Virus record (IMG/VR): IMGVR_UViG_3300044716_000655
Coordinates: 1 to 57,854 of that record
Length of the DNA stretch: 57,854 bases
Origin: a virus
Reading direction: 5' to 3' (one strand)
Part shown: one piece after another, positions 993 to 31,957 of the stretch
How the letters are laid out: the number at the start of each line of letters is the position of its first letter
Position numbering within the stretch: position 1 is the stretch's first letter
Translations under genes and position numbers: made by a program
The notes under the pieces: generated by a model
Told to the model about the DNA's origin: nothing
The model's input: the letters and a program-made list of their open reading frames with translations, nothing else
Database searches by the model: none

Positions 993-1682
993 ATGAAAAG
1001 TATAAATGATATAGTTTTTATTATTCAAGCTAGAACTCAATCAACTAGAGTCCCTAATAAAATGCTTAAACCATTTGCCGACTCTAGCTTATTTGAGATA
1101 GCAGTTAATAAAATTCTCCAATCAGATCTTATTCCTAAAGAAAATTTCTATTTGTCCATTATGGATCAAGAGCTAATAGATATTGCTGAAAAGTATAATA
1201 TAAATTATTTTATTAGAAGTGAAGAGTCAACTCAAGAGCCAATTACATTACAGAAAGTATTTGAATGGCATGATAAACTTCCATTTAAATATTTTGTGAT
1301 TATCAATGCTTGTAATCCTTTATTAAAAATAGAAACAATAGATAATTTTGTTAAACGTTTTTTAGAAGTAGATTCAAATGGATTATTTGGAGTGTTTGAA
1401 AAGAAAACATTTTTGTTTAATAAGGAAGGTGCTATGTTAAATCGTTTCTTTGGAGAAGATAAATACTTAGCTACATTAGAAACTAAATTTGTAGAAACAT
1501 GTTATGAAGCAGCTCATTCATTATATGCTGGTTCAACTGAAGATGTTAGTAATGGAATATACATGGGTACATTTAAAGCACCTGGTAATCCAAACTTCTT
1601 TGTAATGGATGAAATAGAATGTTTTGATATTGATTGGCCGTGGCAATTTGAAGTAGCTGAAAAATTATATTTAAATAAATGA
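993..1682 (+). CDS. Acylneuraminate cytidylyltransferase-like protein (NeuA/SpsF type)
   Basis: A 229-aa nucleotidyltransferase. The N-terminal IIQARTQSTRVPNKML carries the QAR.qS.R.P.Kml signature of the CMP-nonulosonate/CMP-KDO synthetase family, and INACNPLL at about residues 102-109 corresponds to the second nucleotide-binding loop. Family members activate a sialic-type acid with CTP to give the CMP-sugar donor. The stop overlaps the next start as ATGA, so the genes are translationally coupled. With a NeuB-type synthase 800 bases downstream, the pair would make and activate a nonulosonic acid. The identity of the sugar (sialic, legionaminic, pseudaminic) cannot be read from sequence. Confidence 0.75.
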   Translation: MKSINDIVFIIQARTQSTRVPNKMLKPFADSSLFEIAVNKILQSDLIPKENFYLSIMDQELIDIAEKYNINYFIRSEESTQEPITLQKVFEWHDKLPFKYFVIINACNPLLKIETIDNFVKRFLEVDSNGLFGVFEKKTFLFNKEGAMLNRFFGEDKYLATLETKFVETCYEAAHSLYAGSTEDVSNGIYMGTFKAPGNPNFFVMDEIECFDIDWPWQFEVAEKLYLNK

Positions 1683-2488
1683 AAGCGATTGTAATTGGAG
1701 GTGGTTCTATAGGTAAAAGACACTCAACAAACTTAAATAAATTTGGAGTTAAAACTCGTATAGTTGATATTGATGAGATAGACAATATAGATAATATATT
1801 AAGTGAAGGGTTTGATATGGGTTTAGTTTGCACTCCAAACATAAATCATATAGAACATTGCTTAAAATTAGCTAATCATAATATACCTATATTCTGTGAA
1901 AAACCATTTTACACATCAAATGAAGGATTAGATGAACTATTAAAAATAGTAAAAGAAAAAAATCTAATCACAATGGTTGGTTGTAATCTAAGATTTACTC
2001 CTGAAGTGCAACAAATTGATCCTGAAAGTAAATATATTAATGTTTATTTTGGGTATGATCTTAAAAAATGGAGACCTATGACTGACCATTTAAAATCATA
2101 TAGTGCCAACAAACATTTAGGAGGAGGAATATTATTAGATGCTATACATGAGTTAGACTATCTTTACTTTAAGTTTGGAGAAATAGAAGACATTTCTTAT
2201 CTTCATAGAAAACTTACTAACATAACAAATGATACAGAAGATTTAACTACAGGTACTATTAAATTTAAAAATGGTACTGTAGCTGATTTTCATTTAAATT
2301 ATCTATCTGAAGATTATTTAAGATATTATGATGTGTTGAAAGATAATAGATTAAGAAGAACAGAATTTGTTTTAGATAATAGTATGTACATTAATGAAAT
2401 ATTTTATTTTGTAGATAATGTTGTGAATAAAACTCAATGTATGAATAATTTTGAAGAAGCAAGTAAGTTATTAAAACACTTAATATGA
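1679..2488 (+). CDS. Gfo/Idh/MocA-family sugar dehydrogenase
   Basis: A 269-aa NAD(P)-dependent oxidoreductase. It opens with the Rossmann loop VIGGGSIGKRHS (residues 4-15), then CTPNINHIEH and the family hallmark CEKPF at about residue 76 with the conserved lysine. GGGILLDAIHELDY matches the G..lDigiH.iD substrate-binding helix. Members oxidise or reduce a sugar carbon. ATGA overlaps exist at both ends, so it belongs to the neuA-neuB operon. In sialic-like pathways such enzymes act on the precursor sugar; that exact role is inferred. Slightly shorter than the usual 320-350 aa, mainly in the C-terminal sheet. Confidence 0.8.
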   Translation: MKAIVIGGGSIGKRHSTNLNKFGVKTRIVDIDEIDNIDNILSEGFDMGLVCTPNINHIEHCLKLANHNIPIFCEKPFYTSNEGLDELLKIVKEKNLITMVGCNLRFTPEVQQIDPESKYINVYFGYDLKKWRPMTDHLKSYSANKHLGGGILLDAIHELDYLYFKFGEIEDISYLHRKLTNITNDTEDLTTGTIKFKNGTVADFHLNYLSEDYLRYYDVLKDNRLRRTEFVLDNSMYINEIFYFVDNVVNKTQCMNNFEEASKLLKHLI

Positions 2489-3459
2489 AAACATTTGTAA
2501 TAGCAGAGGCAGGAGCTAATCATAATAAAAATTTTAATCAAGCCCTAAAACTGATAGACGTAGCTAAAGAATCAGGAGCCCAAGCTGTTAAATTTCAAAC
2601 ATACTCATCAGAAACTCTTTATAGTAAAAATACTCCTAATTTTGCTGGGTATAAAAATATAAATCAACTTATTAAAGATATTGAATTGCCTCGTGAGTGG
2701 CAAAAAGATCTAAAGCAATACTGTGATGAGATAGGTATTGAGTTTATGTCCACCCCATTTGATGAAAATGCAGTTGATGAGTTAGTTAACTTAGGAGTTA
2801 AACGATTAAAAATAGCTGGGTTTGAATCTACAGATTTTAGATTTGTTGACATGGTAGCTTCATCTAAATTACCTTTAGTTATATCTTTAGGTATTGGATT
2901 TGAAATGAATTATTTAGGTAAAATATTTGACATAGCTAACAAATATGGAAACCATTTAAGTTTTATGTATGCTAATAATGCTTACCCAACTCCAATTGAA
3001 GATGCTGGGGTAGGAATTGTTAGACAATTAGCCCAAGATACAAGATACAGTTGGGGTTTATCTGATCATACTGAAAGTACTTTAACACCTGCTTTAGCAG
3101 TAGCTGCCGGAGCAACAATAATTGAAAAACATTTTACTTTAAGTAAACATTTACCTGGACCTGATCATCCATTTGCTTTAGAACCAAACGAATTAAAAGA
3201 GATGATTCAAAATATTATATTTGCTGAAAAATCTATTTCGAAACAAACATCAAATGGAATATCAGACTCAGAACAAGCATTCAAACAAGCAATGCGTTCG
3301 GTAGTAGCTAAAACAGATATTAAACCTGGAGAGATTTTAACTATAGATAATATTACAACTAAAAGACCTTTTTTAGAAGGATGTACGCCCGCTAGTGAGT
3401 TTGAATCATTGTTAGGTATAGTCGCTACTAAAGAATATAAATACGATGATTTTATATGA
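2485..3459 (+). CDS. neuB: N-acetylneuraminate/nonulosonate synthase
   Basis: A 324-aa protein with full NeuB architecture. The N-terminal TIM barrel starts FVIAEAGANHN and contains KFQTY, FMSTPFD and GLSDHT, ending in IIEKHFTL; these are the conserved metal- and PEP-binding signatures. A C-terminal SAF (antifreeze-like) domain follows from about residue 265, with RSVVAKTDIKPGE. The family condenses phosphoenolpyruvate with an N-acyl amino-hexose to make a nine-carbon nonulosonic acid. Length is only slightly under the normal 335-350 aa and all key motifs are intact, so activity is plausible. It lies inside a tightly coupled operon. Sialic, legionaminic and pseudaminic synthases are not separated by eye. 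Confidence 0.87.
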   Translation: MKTFVIAEAGANHNKNFNQALKLIDVAKESGAQAVKFQTYSSETLYSKNTPNFAGYKNINQLIKDIELPREWQKDLKQYCDEIGIEFMSTPFDENAVDELVNLGVKRLKIAGFESTDFRFVDMVASSKLPLVISLGIGFEMNYLGKIFDIANKYGNHLSFMYANNAYPTPIEDAGVGIVRQLAQDTRYSWGLSDHTESTLTPALAVAAGATIIEKHFTLSKHLPGPDHPFALEPNELKEMIQNIIFAEKSISKQTSNGISDSEQAFKQAMRSVVAKTDIKPGEILTIDNITTKRPFLEGCTPASEFESLLGIVATKEYKYDDFI

Positions 3460-3875
3460 TATTAAGAGAGGCAACATTTAATGATTGGAAAACTCTCCTT
3501 GATTGGAGAAATGATCCTTCCACTAGAGAAAACTCATTCACTACAGAAGAAATATCAGAATCAACTCATAAACAATGGTTCACAGATAGTTTATCTAATG
3601 AAAAAAGAAAAATCTATATTCTAGAAACTAATTTTATTCCTGTAGGATCTATTAGATCAGATGTTTTAGATACAGATAAGTATATTCTATCTTGGAGTAT
3701 TGCTCCAAACCAAAGAGGAAAAGGATATGGCACTAAAATATTAGAAATTTATTTACAAGGTAAAAAAGGTGAGTTTGTAGCTGAGATTAAATCAGAGAAT
3801 ATAGCCTCTATTAAAATGGTTATGAATAATGGATTTGAACAAGTTGATGAATTAAAATATATTAAAAAACAATAA
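3456..3875 (+). CDS. GNAT-family N-acetyltransferase (RimJ/PseH-like)
   Basis: A 139-aa protein of the GCN5-related fold. It begins with LREATFNDWKTLLDWRND, typical of the RimJ/PseH branch, and has the acetyl-CoA-binding loop NQRGKGYGTKIL at about residues 90-101 (Q/R-x-x-G-x-G/A). PseH-type enzymes N-acetylate a 4-amino sugar nucleotide on the way to pseudaminic acid. Placement immediately after neuB with an ATGA overlap favours that role over ribosomal-protein acetylation. The last 30 residues hold the usual helix ENIASIKMVMNNGF. Confidence 0.78.
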   Translation: MILREATFNDWKTLLDWRNDPSTRENSFTTEEISESTHKQWFTDSLSNEKRKIYILETNFIPVGSIRSDVLDTDKYILSWSIAPNQRGKGYGTKILEIYLQGKKGEFVAEIKSENIASIKMVMNNGFEQVDELKYIKKQ

Positions 3876-22513: not shown

Positions 22514-23677
22514 ATGGAAAACAATAATTCAGTGTGCTATGTAGCACGTATAAACGAAATCAACCCAATCCCAGGAGCAGATAATATCGAACAAGGTGTT
22601 ATCGGAGGATGGAATTGTATTATCAAGAAAGGAGAATACAAAGTAGATGACTTAGTTGTAGTAGCAACCACAGACGCAGTTATTCCTGTAGAGCTATCAG
22701 ATGCAATGAACGTAACCAATTACTTACGTAAGGGTCAACGTGTGCGTACTGTTAAGTTAAGAGGTGTTTACAGTGAGTGTTTGATTATACCTTTAAGATA
22801 CGCTCGTCAATCTGCTAAATACACTAAATTGGAGTGGAATGAAGGTAAGGATGTAATGGAATTGTTAGGTATCTTCAAGTATGAACCACCAGTACGCCAA
22901 GTACAAGTGGCAGGGGGTCGTAAGATTAAATATAAAGACAACCCTAATTTCCAGGTTTATTATAAATTCCCCAACATAAAAAATGTGAATGGAATGTTTA
23001 ATGAAGAAGATTATGTACAAATTACTCGTAAGATACATGGTACAAATGCTCGTTATGGTATTGTTAAGAAACATAAGTTATCATTTTGGGATAAGTGTAA
23101 AAAATTCTTACGATTAGCTGATGAGTGGATTGAGTATGAATATGTTTATGGTTCACATAACGTTGAGAAAGGTTCTGATACACAAGGTTTCTACTCAACT
23201 GATGTTTGGAGAGAGGTAGCTGATAAGTATCAAATCAAAGATAAGTTGTGGGCGTTTGTTAAGAATCACACACCAACTGAAGTTGGAACTGGAGTAATAG
23301 TATATGGTGAGATATACGGACCTGGTATTCAAAAGAACTATGACTACGGATTGAAGGAGTTAGAGTTTGCTGGTTTTGATGTTGTATGGAATGGTAAATA
23401 TTTTTGTGGTGAATTAACTCATCTTACAATGATTGGTAAGCATAATGACTTTATCGACGGTGTTGATTTGCCTCACGTACCTATTTTATATGTTGGACTT
23501 TGGTCTCAAGAGATTCAAGATAAGTTCACATTCAACAACTTTATTGAAGGAACTAAAGTACCACATGAAGGTATTGTAATCAAACACACAAGTGGACAAA
23601 GAGAAAAAGTAGCTAAAGTAATTAACCCAGACTATCTCATCTATGGAGAGAAACATGATGTAGGAGATTCACACTAA
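22514..23677 (+). CDS. RNA ligase (Rnl5/DraRnl-like)
   Basis: A 387-aa ligase. Residues 1-100 form an N-terminal OB-like domain (INPIPGADNIEQGVIGGW). The nucleotidyltransferase motif I is KIHGTN, with Lys173 as the AMP-binding lysine. Motif III-like VYGEIYGPGIQ, motif IV EGIVIKHTSG and motif V KVINPDYL follow in order. This architecture with an N-terminal OB fold is that of the Deinococcus DraRnl/Rnl5 group, which seals 3'-OH/5'-P nicks in RNA strands. It probably repairs tRNA or other RNA cut by host nucleases. All catalytic blocks look intact. Confidence 0.85.
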   Translation: MENNNSVCYVARINEINPIPGADNIEQGVIGGWNCIIKKGEYKVDDLVVVATTDAVIPVELSDAMNVTNYLRKGQRVRTVKLRGVYSECLIIPLRYARQSAKYTKLEWNEGKDVMELLGIFKYEPPVRQVQVAGGRKIKYKDNPNFQVYYKFPNIKNVNGMFNEEDYVQITRKIHGTNARYGIVKKHKLSFWDKCKKFLRLADEWIEYEYVYGSHNVEKGSDTQGFYSTDVWREVADKYQIKDKLWAFVKNHTPTEVGTGVIVYGEIYGPGIQKNYDYGLKELEFAGFDVVWNGKYFCGELTHLTMIGKHNDFIDGVDLPHVPILYVGLWSQEIQDKFTFNNFIEGTKVPHEGIVIKHTSGQREKVAKVINPDYLIYGEKHDVGDSH

Positions 23678-23687
23678 GACTTTTTAT

Positions 23688-23725
23688 CCTAGGCTTTTAA
23701 ATAAGATTTATTATCTTTATAGTAT
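23688..23725 (+). promoter_or_regulatory. Promoter, CCTAGG / TATCTTTATAG, giving a nearly leaderless gene
   Basis: CCTAGGCTTTTAAATAAG then TATCTTTATAGTATG. The ATG of the next gene (23724) replaces the ATAA part of the core, so transcription should begin at or very near the start codon. Confidence 0.75.
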
Positions 23726-24374
23726 GAAAATAGAATTAAAACCCCACCAAGGATTATGGTTTACAAGTGATACTCACTACAACCATGCTAACATATGTCG
23801 AGCGACTACAAGATGGACTGATGCAGATGCTGTGACTCGTGACTTTAGTTCATTAGAGAAAATGAATGAGACATTAGTATCTAACATTAACAAATATGTT
23901 CAACAAGATGATATCCTGATTCATTTAGGTGATTGGTCATTTGGTGGTTTTGAGAGTATTAAAGAGTTTAGAGATAGGATTGTATGCCAAAACATACATT
24001 TAGTACTCGGAAACCATGATCATCATATTTCAAACAACAGAGACGATATCCAATCTATATTCAGTTCAGTAAATCAATACTTAGATTTAGATGTTAGATG
24101 GTGGGTTGCTGGTAAGATAAAAGAACACGCTCGTTTCATCTGTATGCATTATCCTATAGCGAGTTGGAATGGAATGAATGATGGGGCAGTTCACTTACAT
24201 GGACACGTTCATTTACCTAAACATTTAAGAATGGCAGCTGGCAAGGCAATGGATGTAGGAGTAGATGGAAATGATTTGGAGCCAATTGAAATGGATGATA
24301 TATTAATTAAAATGGTATCTAGACCAATCGATAAATTAACATTACCAAAAGATCATCACGTTAAAAGAATATAA
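23724..24374 (+). CDS. Calcineurin-like phosphoesterase
   Basis: A 216-aa enzyme with SDTHYNHANICR (residues 15-26), HLGDWSFGG near 72, VLGNHDHH near 98 and HLHGHVH near 158, a full two-metal site. This type is widespread in phages and resembles bacterial YfcE/ MJ0936-type phosphodiesterases. It is placed directly after the RNA ligase but on its own promoter. It could remove 2'-phosphate or cyclic-phosphate ends, or act on nucleotides; substrate unknown. Confidence 0.8.
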   Translation: MKIELKPHQGLWFTSDTHYNHANICRATTRWTDADAVTRDFSSLEKMNETLVSNINKYVQQDDILIHLGDWSFGGFESIKEFRDRIVCQNIHLVLGNHDHHISNNRDDIQSIFSSVNQYLDLDVRWWVAGKIKEHARFICMHYPIASWNGMNDGAVHLHGHVHLPKHLRMAAGKAMDVGVDGNDLEPIEMDDILIKMVSRPIDKLTLPKDHHVKRI

Positions 24375-30113: not shown

Positions 30114-30320
30114 ATGAAAAAAGCATTAAAAATAATTTTAGCATTTATTGTAATAAATGTAATCATGGGTATTGGTGTTTGGGGAGTAATTACTAACGAA
30201 AGTGATACAGAACCAGGATGGCAAGTATGGGGATGGTTTTTAGCAGTACTTACAATTGCATGGCCAGCTATTAGTTTTTGGTGGGATAGAATGCTTTGGT
30301 TATTAGATTTAGAAGATTAA
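30114..30320 (+). CDS. Small membrane protein, two helices
   Basis: A 68-aa protein with two transmembrane helices (about residues 4-25 and 39-58) rich in tryptophan. Last coding gene before a 990-base RNA region. Function unknown. Confidence 0.5.
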   Translation: MKKALKIILAFIVINVIMGIGVWGVITNESDTEPGWQVWGWFLAVLTIAWPAISFWWDRMLWLLDLED

Positions 30321-30329
30321 AATAATTAG

Positions 30330-30345
30330 CCCCGCTCGCGAGGGG
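30330..30345 (+). terminator. Hairpin at the start of the RNA region
   Basis: CCCC (30330-30333) and GGGG (30342-30345) around GCTCGCGA, itself partly palindromic. There is no T-run, so it may pause or separate transcripts rather than end them. Confidence 0.35.
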
Positions 30346-30444
30346 ATCGTAAAACACAGTAAGCCTCTGACACAAGCTCAAGTAACTGTTCTCATCGTAT
30401 AGGAGATAGAGTTAGCCTACTCGACGTCGTTTAAAAAGGCAGCA
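30346..30444 (+). ncRNA. Unassigned structured spacer at the head of the RNA array
   Basis: Non-coding. It includes CTCAAGTA at 30377-30384, a motif that recurs at 30810 and 31102, and TCTC-ATCGTATA-GGAGA near 30390, which forms a small hairpin. No known RNA family recognised; it probably belongs to the same transcript as the four tRNA-like elements. Confidence 0.35.
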
Positions 30445-30511
30445 AGTCAGGTAACTTAATTGGCAAAGCTCCTAACAAGGAAGATTGCGGGTTCGAATCC
30501 CGCCCTGACTA
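30445..30511 (+). ncRNA. tRNA-like element 1, shrunken anticodon arm
   Basis: AGTCAGG (30445-30451) pairs with CCTGACT (30504-30510), discriminator A. The T arm is GCGGGTTCGAATCCCGC and the D arm ACTTAATTGGCAAAGC, all normal. Between them the anticodon arm is reduced to TCCT-AACA-AGGA, four pairs and a four-base loop, so no standard anticodon can be displayed. Length 67 nt. It may be a processing signal, a decoy or a degenerate tRNA. Confidence 0.6.
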
Positions 30512-30776
30512 CGATGAGTGAGAGATCCTCAGGCAGATTGGCTACATTCTGTAAAAAAAGTAGTGGTAGTAAAAAGCCCCCGACCTTAATGGGGAATCGA
30601 TTCGGGTTAAAGTGAAGCATATCCGCAGCTCCGACGTATAGGATTGACAGGTTTTTATGTGGTAAGACACTAATGAAAAAGACCGACTGAGCGAAAGGCA
30701 GAAGGGGATATGGTTCTCGAAATAGTTAGAGAAACCCGTTAAAATCTACTCACTGAGATCTCAGGTGGGGCAATAT
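30512..30776 (+). ncRNA. Structured non-coding spacer between tRNA-like elements 1 and 2
   Basis: A 265-base stretch with no ORF of note. GGTTCTC/GAGAAACC forms a hairpin near 30712-30737, CACTGA-GATC-TCAGGTG another near 30751-30767, and GAATCGATTC is a 10-base palindrome near 30595. CGTATAGGA recurs here (near 30637) as in the head spacer. Not recognised as an intron, tmRNA or RNase P RNA. Confidence 0.35.
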
Positions 30777-30939
30777 AGTCAGGTGGCGGAATTGGTAGAC
30801 GCTATCGTACTCAAGTAAGGCAAAGCAATGTAGATGAAACGTCGTCACATGGTGAGTTAACACCTAAAAGTCTTTGGACTTGAAATCCAAAAAACCTTGA
30901 GTATGTTCTACAATACAGGTTCGAATCCTGTCCTGACTA
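30777..30939 (+). ncRNA. tRNA-like element 2, 163 nt, with insert and Ser(UGA)-like arm
   Basis: Acceptor AGTCAGG/CCTGACT, D arm GTGGCGGAATTGGTAGACGC of class II type, and T arm ACAGGTTCGAATCCTGT are normal. Between D arm and T arm lie about 110 bases. Within them CGTACTCAAG (30806-30815) pairs with CTTGAGTATG (30896-30905) over ten bases with one G-U. Inside that helix TTTGGA-CTTGAAA-TCCAAA (30873-30891) is a perfect anticodon-type arm with anticodon TGA. Either a tRNA-Ser with an inserted 70-base segment, or a larger tRNA-scaffolded RNA. ACTCAAG also resembles a Leu(CAA) loop. Confidence 0.6.
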
Positions 30940-31017
30940 CGCACCTACAATTGGGTAGGAAGTTGGCCGCCAACCAACAAGGGACAAAGGCTGACACCTC
31001 GGAAAGACGAGGAACAT
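30940..31017 (+). ncRNA. Three-hairpin RNA between tRNA-like elements 2 and 3
   Basis: Three perfect 5-bp hairpins in a row: CCTAC/GTAGG (30944-30959), GTTGG/CCAAC (30962-30974) and CCTCG/CGAGG (30997-31012, loop GAAAGA). The order and regularity suggest a folded RNA released between two tRNA-like elements. No known family recognised. Confidence 0.45.
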
Positions 31018-31087
31018 AGACAGGTAGTTTAATTGGTAAAATGTTCTCATACTGAGAAGAATACAGGTTCGAATCCTGTCCTGACTA
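31018..31087 (+). ncRNA. tRNA-like element 3, five-base anticodon loop
   Basis: Acceptor AGACAGG/CCTGACT with an A-A mismatch at the third pair, D arm GTTTAATTGGTAAAAT, T arm the same as in element 2. The anticodon stem TTCTC/GAGAA closes a loop of only ATACT. Read with a four-pair stem the loop would be CATACTG, which lacks the universal U33. It is therefore tRNA-shaped but unlikely to decode. Length 70 nt. Confidence 0.6.
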
Positions 31088-31189
31088 CAAAAACACATTA
31101 ACTCAAGTACCCATACTGAGGACGATGGGCTAAGTAAGATACAATTCCGTCATGCAGGGAGTAGAATGCTTGAGAATGTGTTTAAATAT
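31088..31189 (+). ncRNA. RNA closed by a 15-bp helix, between tRNA-like elements 3 and 4
   Basis: AAACACATT (31091-31099) pairs with AATGTGTTT (31175-31183), and after a two-base bulge CTCAAG (31102-31107) pairs with CTTGAG (31169-31174). Inside, CCCAT (31110-31114) pairs with ATGGG (31125-31129). The long closing helix makes an independent folded RNA likely. Function unknown. Confidence 0.5.
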
Positions 31190-31294
31190 AGTCAGGTGAT
31201 TTTTGGAAAACGCAGCACCTTCCAGGGTTGAGACTAACAGCTAATGGCACTCAGAATGATAAAGCTGAAGCAGGTTCGATTCCTGTCCTGACTA
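31190..31294 (+). ncRNA. tRNA-like element 4, 105 nt, with non-canonical centre
   Basis: Acceptor AGTCAGG/CCTGACT, discriminator A, T arm GCAGGTTCGATTCCTGT. A D-arm-like TGATTTTTGGAAAACGC follows the acceptor. The roughly 55 bases where the anticodon arm should be contain no 7-base loop on a 5-bp stem; TGAG/CTCA and CTTCCAG/CTGAAG pairings are possible. It resembles element 2 in plan but not in the insert sequence. Confidence 0.55.
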
Positions 31295-31310
31295 CTAAAA
31301 ATAAAAATAT

Positions 31311-31555: not shown

Positions 31556-31957
31556 ATGATTATATATTTAGATGATATACGAACACCAATTGAGACAGAT
31601 TGGGTTGTTGTTAGAAATTATGATGAGTTTGTATCTAAAATAACTGAAATTGGTTTAGATGATATTGAACTAATATCATTAGATCATGACCTAGGCGATT
31701 CAGCTATGAGGGAATGGCACACCAATGTATATCACAACTACACCTTAGACTATAATAACATTACAGAGAAGACTGGAATGGATTGTGCTAGATGGTTAGT
31801 GGAACAATGGTTAAATGGAGCCCCAGTATGCCAAGTAATGATTCACTCAGCTAACGCTGTTGGTAGTGCTAACATGATGGGTTATATTAACAACTATAAA
31901 CATATCCATCATTTAGAACAAGACTGTGCTCGATGGGTAATACCACATACAATATAA
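31556..31957 (+). CDS. Cyclic-phosphate-processing receiver-like domain (cREC family)
   Basis: A 133-aa protein. The opening YLDDIRTP, the SLDHDLGD block near residue 42 and HSANAVGSANM near 100 are the signature of the receiver-like cREC family, predicted to act on cyclic phosphates and found near RNA-repair genes. The pattern is distinct from a true response regulator, since no phospho-acceptor/lysine set of CheY type is seen. Its place just behind the RNA array supports a part in RNA end processing. Enzymatic activity of the family is a prediction. Confidence 0.65.
   Translation: MIIYLDDIRTPIETDWVVVRNYDEFVSKITEIGLDDIELISLDHDLGDSAMREWHTNVYHNYTLDYNNITEKTGMDCARWLVEQWLNGAPVCQVMIHSANAVGSANMMGYINNYKHIHHLEQDCARWVIPHTI

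Follow-up and report, generated by a model that had tools for sequence, protein, structure and literature searches.

A tRNA-like element of a T4-like phage as a probable non-decoding tRNA mimic with a separate folded insert, and the viral class to which it belongs

We consider it likely, with a probability of about 0.7, that tRNA-like element 2 of this virus is a non-decoding tRNA mimic, consisting of a tRNA chassis and a separate folded functional insert, within a noncoding RNA (ncRNA) array of a T4-like phage. The window, by which we mean the whole 57,854-nt stretch analyzed, contains four such elements (Table 1). The original prediction delimited element 2 correctly, from nucleotide A1 at 30777 to the discriminator A73 at 30939, and left a choice between a new kind of tRNA insertion and a functional RNA nested in a tRNA scaffold. 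The comparative evidence favors the nested RNA, for a whole class of elements and not for element 2 alone. This class, defined here and called the AGTCAGG class, has the acceptor AGTCAGG with at most one change, a T arm, a noncanonical center, and a place in a noncoding array, and element 2 shows each of these features. Its anatomy, its class, and the conservation, covariation, and array order described below are read from the sequences themselves.

Table 1. Positions of the tRNA-like elements, the array RNAs, the parts of element 2, and two context genes in the window
Feature	Position	Strand	Remarks
Conserved ncRNA up1, upstream of tRNA-like 1	30319..30441	+	97% over 132 nt (L038), 93% over 117 nt (L034/L054)
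tRNA-like 1	30445..30511	+	AGTCAGG acceptor; small noncanonical anticodon arm; near-identical center in L332, L337, L241
Conserved structured ncRNA sp12	30644..30776	+	immediately 5' of tRNA-like 2
tRNA-like element 2 (main finding)	30777..30939	+	163 nt, A1 to A73
Element 2, acceptor 5' strand	30777..30783	+	AGTCAGG; partner strand 30932-30938
Element 2, Leu-type D arm	30786..30802	+	GCG-GAATTGGTAGA-CGC; A14, A15, G18G19, A20a; stem GCG/CGC, 30786-30788/30800-30802
Element 2, insert	30803..30913	+	111 nt; replaces anticodon arm and variable region
Element 2, 10-bp helix, 5' strand	30806..30815	+	CGTACTCAAG
Element 2, anticodon-arm-like hairpin	30873..30891	+	TTTGGA-CTTGAAA-TCCAAA; about 50% folded; overlapped by rival hairpin AAGUC/GACUU
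Element 2, 10-bp helix, 3' strand	30896..30905	+	CTTGAGTATG
Element 2, U48 and T arm	30914..30931	+	U48, Levitt partner of A15; T arm ACAGG-TTCGAAT-CCTGT, 30915-30931
Element 2, acceptor 3' strand and discriminator	30932..30939	+	CCTGACT (30932-30938), then A73
Conserved hairpin sp23	30986..31016	+	immediately 5' of tRNA-like 3
tRNA-like 3	31018..31087	+	tRNA-Val(UAC) in ARAGORN; lacks U33; one acceptor mismatch
Conserved covarying ncRNA sp34	31089..31183	+	immediately 5' of tRNA-like 4
tRNA-like 4	31190..31294	+	insert in a 7-member family
cREC_REC protein	31556..31957	+	predicted cyclic-phosphate RNA-end processing; adjoins array; context only
RNA ligase	22514..23677	+	context only

The tRNA-type parts of element 2, namely a 7-bp acceptor, a T arm, and a D arm with its elbow contacts, are all present. 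Its predicted fold runs from the acceptor through the D stem, the 10-bp helix, and several inner hairpins to the T arm, includes the acceptor/T-arm stack, and has an energy of -47.4 kcal/mol compared with -34.6 ± 3.8 in dinucleotide shuffles (z -3.35). The ten-base pairing of CGTACTCAAG with CTTGAGTATG, noticed at the outset, was confirmed as nine Watson-Crick pairs and one G-U pair with probabilities of 0.92-1.00; as 8.8% of shuffled inserts contain a helix of at least 10 bp, the helix alone is not rare. The distance from the D arm to the anticodon-like arm, estimated earlier at about 70 bases, is 70 nt. That arm, described as being of textbook form, is indeed there as a sequence, but it is only half populated: the predicted pairing is split about 0.5 against 0.5 between it and an overlapping AAGUC-UUUG-GACUU hairpin, the pair lying at 30868-30891, and it is missing from both the MFE and the centroid structures. 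An arm of equal quality occurred in 0.6% of the insert shuffles, and among about 100 independent inserts of the class one as good is expected by chance. Because such arms are near chance level in the class and this one is half populated, we do not read the segment as a serine anticodon arm. Searching with the insert sequence retrieved as relative only G001, a 140-kb record of the same phage that is 100% identical over 12.3 kb, and selection on element 2's own insert is thus shown by folding alone. A further match, in L127, lies in coding DNA and was dismissed as chance.

Known RNA types fitted the element poorly. A decoding tRNA-Leu or tRNA-Ser was rejected, as 111 nt of insert stand where an anticodon arm with a 5-bp stem, a 7-nt loop, and U33 should follow the D stem; ARAGORN made no tRNA call for element 2, and the Rfam tRNA model reached 25.1 bits, below its cut-off of 29, with a different 5' part (from 30851 on). 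The proposed Ser(UGA) identity is unsupported, given A73, a Leu-type D arm, and an arm that is about half folded at best: among the 65 tRNA-Ser of the same loci, only 5 have A73. A group I intron had rightly been ruled out from the start, the Rfam model RF00028 finding no match at the locus and the insert being merely 111 nt. We also rejected tmRNA, for which neither ARAGORN nor Rfam gave a call at the locus, and YrlA, for which Rfam gave 17.8 bits at a neighboring place against a cut-off of 69 and the TROVE gene is absent from G001.

An exact scan of IMG/VR with the first 25 nt after A1 found at least 119 stretches. Nearly all of the matches listed had the same T arm and CCTGACT 68-161 nt downstream, with a differing insert between. 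With a structural finder we collected 372 distinct class elements (median length 104 nt) in 183 loci, a sample biased by exact-word retrieval and drawn from IMG/VR contigs that are fragments. A canonical anticodon arm was present in 14 of the 372 (4%); of the 1,094 ordinary tRNAs that these loci contain, which use 570 different acceptors, 1,041 (95%) have one. Under a stricter finder 249 of 315 noncanonical scaffolds belonged to the class, whereas among canonical scaffolds just 9 of 967 did, and a reversed-pattern control gave zero matches in 39 records. With 96% of its relatives lacking a canonical anticodon arm in place, the reading of element 2 as a new type of tRNA insertion is not supported. 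Nor are the class elements needed for decoding, because a related phage that has 25 ordinary tRNAs, all differing in their acceptors, also has about 14 of them; the window phage carries an ordinary tRNA-Leu and tRNA-Met. ARAGORN takes 65 of the 372 elements for tRNAs and assigns them about 40 different "anticodons," so that automatic counts overstate the number of tRNAs in such phages.

Outside IMG/VR, the AGTCAGG/Leu-type 25-mer yielded zero elements in the INPHARED phages. In GTDB genomes the matches fell in short MAG contigs, three in all, of which two contain elements and resemble phage DNA binned by mistake; a Neisseriaceae MAG contig (L124) has the 26-mer twice, at 28-53 and 716-741, the readable copy having no T arm within 200 nt. 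In the window and in eight loci of this kind, Rfam 15 recognized nothing but tRNAs, the class and the array ncRNAs being absent from that database, and we did not find the class described in the literature searched, whose coverage excludes most subscription journals. In the Flavobacterium phage vB_FspM_immuto (L353; NC_055915, tRNA region at 20.2-21.4 kb), an annotated tRNA-Cys at L353 20246-20331 with the acceptor AATCGGT has neither the D-loop GG nor a canonical anticodon arm, and the gaps between the tRNAs resemble ncRNAs; the region may be an instance of the phenomenon in a cultured phage. The gut Crassvirales phage cr4_1 (L148) contains at about 2950-3040 a possible tRNA-like element with an acceptor close to AGTAAG/CTTACT; the same 6 kb also contain a group I intron and a RAGATH-9 RNA.

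Across the class the acceptor, D arm, T arm, and elbow are conserved, and the parts lost are those needed for decoding. The Levitt pair 15-48 covaries, with A-U in 269 and G-C in 13 elements versus A-C in 5 and G-U in 4 (Fisher P = 1.5e-15, a guide only, the sequences being distinct but related). Compensatory pairs are found in the acceptor (TGTCAGG/CCTGACA, AGTCAAG/CTTGACT, and AGTCAGA/TCTGACT) and in the T stem (GATGG/CCATC, GTAGG/CCTAC, and ACAAG/CTTGT); some members have occasional acceptor mismatches. On this comparative record, the scaffold of the class is under tRNA-fold constraint. In five loci (L236 at 3683-3823, L196, L096, L087, and L046) a second hairpin is present in the D loop besides the anticodon-arm insert.

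The inserts are far more varied. Clustering the inserts of 287 elements gave 197 clusters, of which 149 were singletons. The mean fold z of inserts is about -1. Insert families nevertheless recur between diverged phages. One occurs on AGTCAGG scaffolds in three phages; two phages carry it on an ACTCAAG/CTTGAGT scaffold and another on a further variant, and five of its pairs show compensatory changes. The family of the element 4 insert, whose 7 members include other phages, is nearly invariant across seven loci. The largest cluster could not be folded as a single alignment. Where families exist, the inserts are conserved RNA domains, and this conservation, together with the ordinary tRNAs that the phages already carry, speaks against the tRNA-insertion reading. 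Two candidate class rules were rejected: hidden anticodon arms were found in 10 of 100 nonredundant inserts when 5.1 were expected, and a helix closing the base of the insert in 39% versus 30%, an unclear enrichment.

Charging by leucine in Escherichia coli depends on A73, A15-U48, G18G19, and A20a and not on the anticodon or the variable arm, and a tRNA-Leu without its anticodon arm is still charged (PMC9976931). Element 2 has the whole leucine-charging set, A14 included. The set (A14, A15-U48, GGNA, and A73) occurs in 123 of the 127 tRNA-Leu and in only 70 of 1,165 other tRNAs from the same loci. Element 2 may thus be leucylated without being able to decode. As the 25-mer probe selects for part of this set, we recomputed its frequency on loci fetched with ncRNA probes only, where 41% of class members have it in full. 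Since over half of the class lacks the full set, leucylation is not its common function.

The noncoding stretch at 30321-31310, in which the longest ORF has 54 aa, holds the four tRNA-like elements on one strand, separated by conserved RNAs. The sp12 RNA combines a conserved TGTGGTAAGACACTAATG with a variable middle hairpin, and its core occurs in 99 viral stretches. The sp34 core occurs in at least 119; the RNA, about 95 nt long, was seen in L044, L068, L080, L083, and about 80 other loci among the matches listed, has no Rfam family, and is a candidate new RNA family. Its covariation is strong, 23 of 47 sequences having changed on both sides at one outer-helix pair. A tRNA or tRNA-like element stands at a near-fixed distance 3' of sp34 in 45 of the 84 copies among the matches listed (4% at random positions), of sp23 in 13 of 18 (3%), and of sp12 in 47 of 57 (17%). 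In other phages the spacer RNAs of the window precede tRNA-Ser, tRNA-Leu, or tRNA-Asp, as named from their anticodons. Punctuation by tRNAs is not universal, because about half of the sp34 copies have no recognized tRNA directly 3'. In L034 and L054, a gene rather than a tRNA comes after up1. A promoter and terminator scan was uninformative.

The window comes from a T4-like myovirus, and G001 carries its terminase, portal, major head protein, and tail sheath. As the nearest named relatives are the Flavobacterium phages vB_FspM_immuto (60% identity in the terminase, 57% in the major capsid), the host is probably a flavobacterium or a relative. The RNA ligase gene is adjoined by one for a metallophosphoesterase (together 22514-24374), possibly an RNA-repair pair. 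The cREC_REC protein was rejected as an obligatory partner, being found in only 8 of the 36 related records. The CTP_transf_3, Gfo/Idh/MocA oxidoreductase, and NeuB genes at 993-3459 suggest that a sialic-acid-like sugar is synthesized or modified by the phage. Among the phage records retrieved by the tRNA-like probe, three encode TROVE (Ro60/Rsr) proteins (G018, 155335-156090; G010, 197310-197546; and G014, 27-188).

For the making of such RNAs we propose the following. The whole array would most likely be transcribed as one RNA, in which RNase P would cut the 5' end of each tRNA-like element or tRNA, and the 3' tRNA-maturation enzymes would trim the ends and add CCA. These cuts would release the intervening ncRNAs and the tRNA-like element itself, whose insert would gain protected tRNA-type ends; the insert would be the working part and could be exchanged between phages. 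RNase Z and the CCA enzyme recognize the acceptor, T arm, and elbow. RNase P gauges the acceptor/T-arm stack and the elbow (PMC4919913). Both RNase P and the 3' enzymes would be able to act on the tRNA-like elements because they read these conserved parts and not the missing anticodon arm. For element 2 we infer transcription, processing, charging, and a function of the insert. By a more elaborate form of the proposal, the phages would possess a cassette system with a conserved leucine-type chassis, the anticodon arm as the site of module exchange, tRNA-punctuated arrays that also express a set of additional undescribed structured RNAs, and non-decoding leucine charging; taken as a whole, this version is tentative, and we would sooner doubt it than accept it. 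As a counterpoint, tandem tRNA-like elements with the same acceptor could have spread by recombination alone.

Among other explanations, it is conceivable though unlikely that the elements are decoys or sponges, anticodon-less and perhaps leucylated mimics that occupy LeuRS, a tRNA-cutting defense enzyme, PNPase, or Ro60, with inserts shaped by an arms race. The retained leucine identity set, the extreme diversity of the inserts with several copies per genome, and the RNA-repair type genes of the phage would suit such a role, but insert families that stay nearly unchanged in several phages are unlike simple bulk decoys. A Ro60/Y-RNA mechanism in particular was rejected, since no more than 3 of the 36 related records contain TROVE (2 of them with scores over the Pfam cut-off) and the window phage lacks it. 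Less credible is a real tRNA with a novel small intron, whose splicing, perhaps by the phage RNA ligase and an end-processing activity, would leave a decoding tRNA-Leu or tRNA-Ser. The phage does encode the ligase and the cREC_REC protein, and the insert is closed by the 10-bp helix with the anticodon-like arm inside, yet no exon anticodon arm can be identified in an element whose class lacks one in 96% of cases, the inserts differ wholly between elements while being conserved domains within families, Rfam finds no intron at the locus, and the phages already have tRNA-Leu or large tRNA sets. We give equally little credence to a pure processing signal that would mark cut sites only: the fixed position after ncRNAs, where ordinary tRNAs serve equally, agrees with it, but inserts that were filler would show neither compensatory conservation nor better-than-shuffle folding. 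Degenerate relics, that is, decayed phage tRNA copies with random insertions, are the least probable of all despite the many copies and occasional acceptor mismatches, as the elbow and stems covary, the inserts contain compensatory changes, and the order with other ncRNAs is conserved; for the class, covariation refutes them.

The non-decoding mimic, our preferred reading, looks like a general, previously undescribed route to build and release small RNAs, because hundreds of viral relatives share the chassis while their inserts differ. Phages related to a Flavobacterium isolate carry this class of hundreds of members, whose inserts form about 200 unrelated clusters, and the array adds several structured RNAs that are widespread and have no Rfam 15 entry. 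The modular array may well merit a rank beyond that of a variant of tRNA-mimic ncRNA. To our knowledge, only a few types of natural tRNA mimics with a replaced anticodon arm are known, among them tmRNA and YrlA. In tmRNA, a large non-tRNA domain replaces the anticodon arm between tRNA-like ends; element 2 differs in having a true D stem. The bacterial Y RNA YrlA is likewise modular and non-decoding, with a domain like the tRNA D, T, and acceptor arms (PMC8394870), but it ends in its own long 5'/3' stem holding Rsr/Ro60, whereas the phage class ends in the acceptor. The viral tRNA-like parts of the MHV68 TMERs are not detectably charged and process attached noncoding RNAs (PMC12239594), a role proposed here as well; those, however, belong to a mouse herpesvirus with another polymerase and other enzymes, and the effector lies 3' of the tRNA and not inside it. 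The nearest biological precedent, compared by description, is T4 RNAC and RNAD, ncRNAs of unknown role in the tRNA region of T4-type phages (PMC3014915, PMC9697503), which are not described there as tRNA-scaffolded or modular; the class bears on a long-open question, namely the role and the production of the stable RNAs other than tRNAs that phage tRNA clusters encode. The same architecture is found in the engineered "tRNA scaffold," which keeps the acceptor stem, D arm, and T arm, takes its insertions in the anticodon stem-loop, and gives a processed, stable RNA (PMC3753655): that scaffold is artificial, while the phage class is natural and carries about 200 clusters of inserts.
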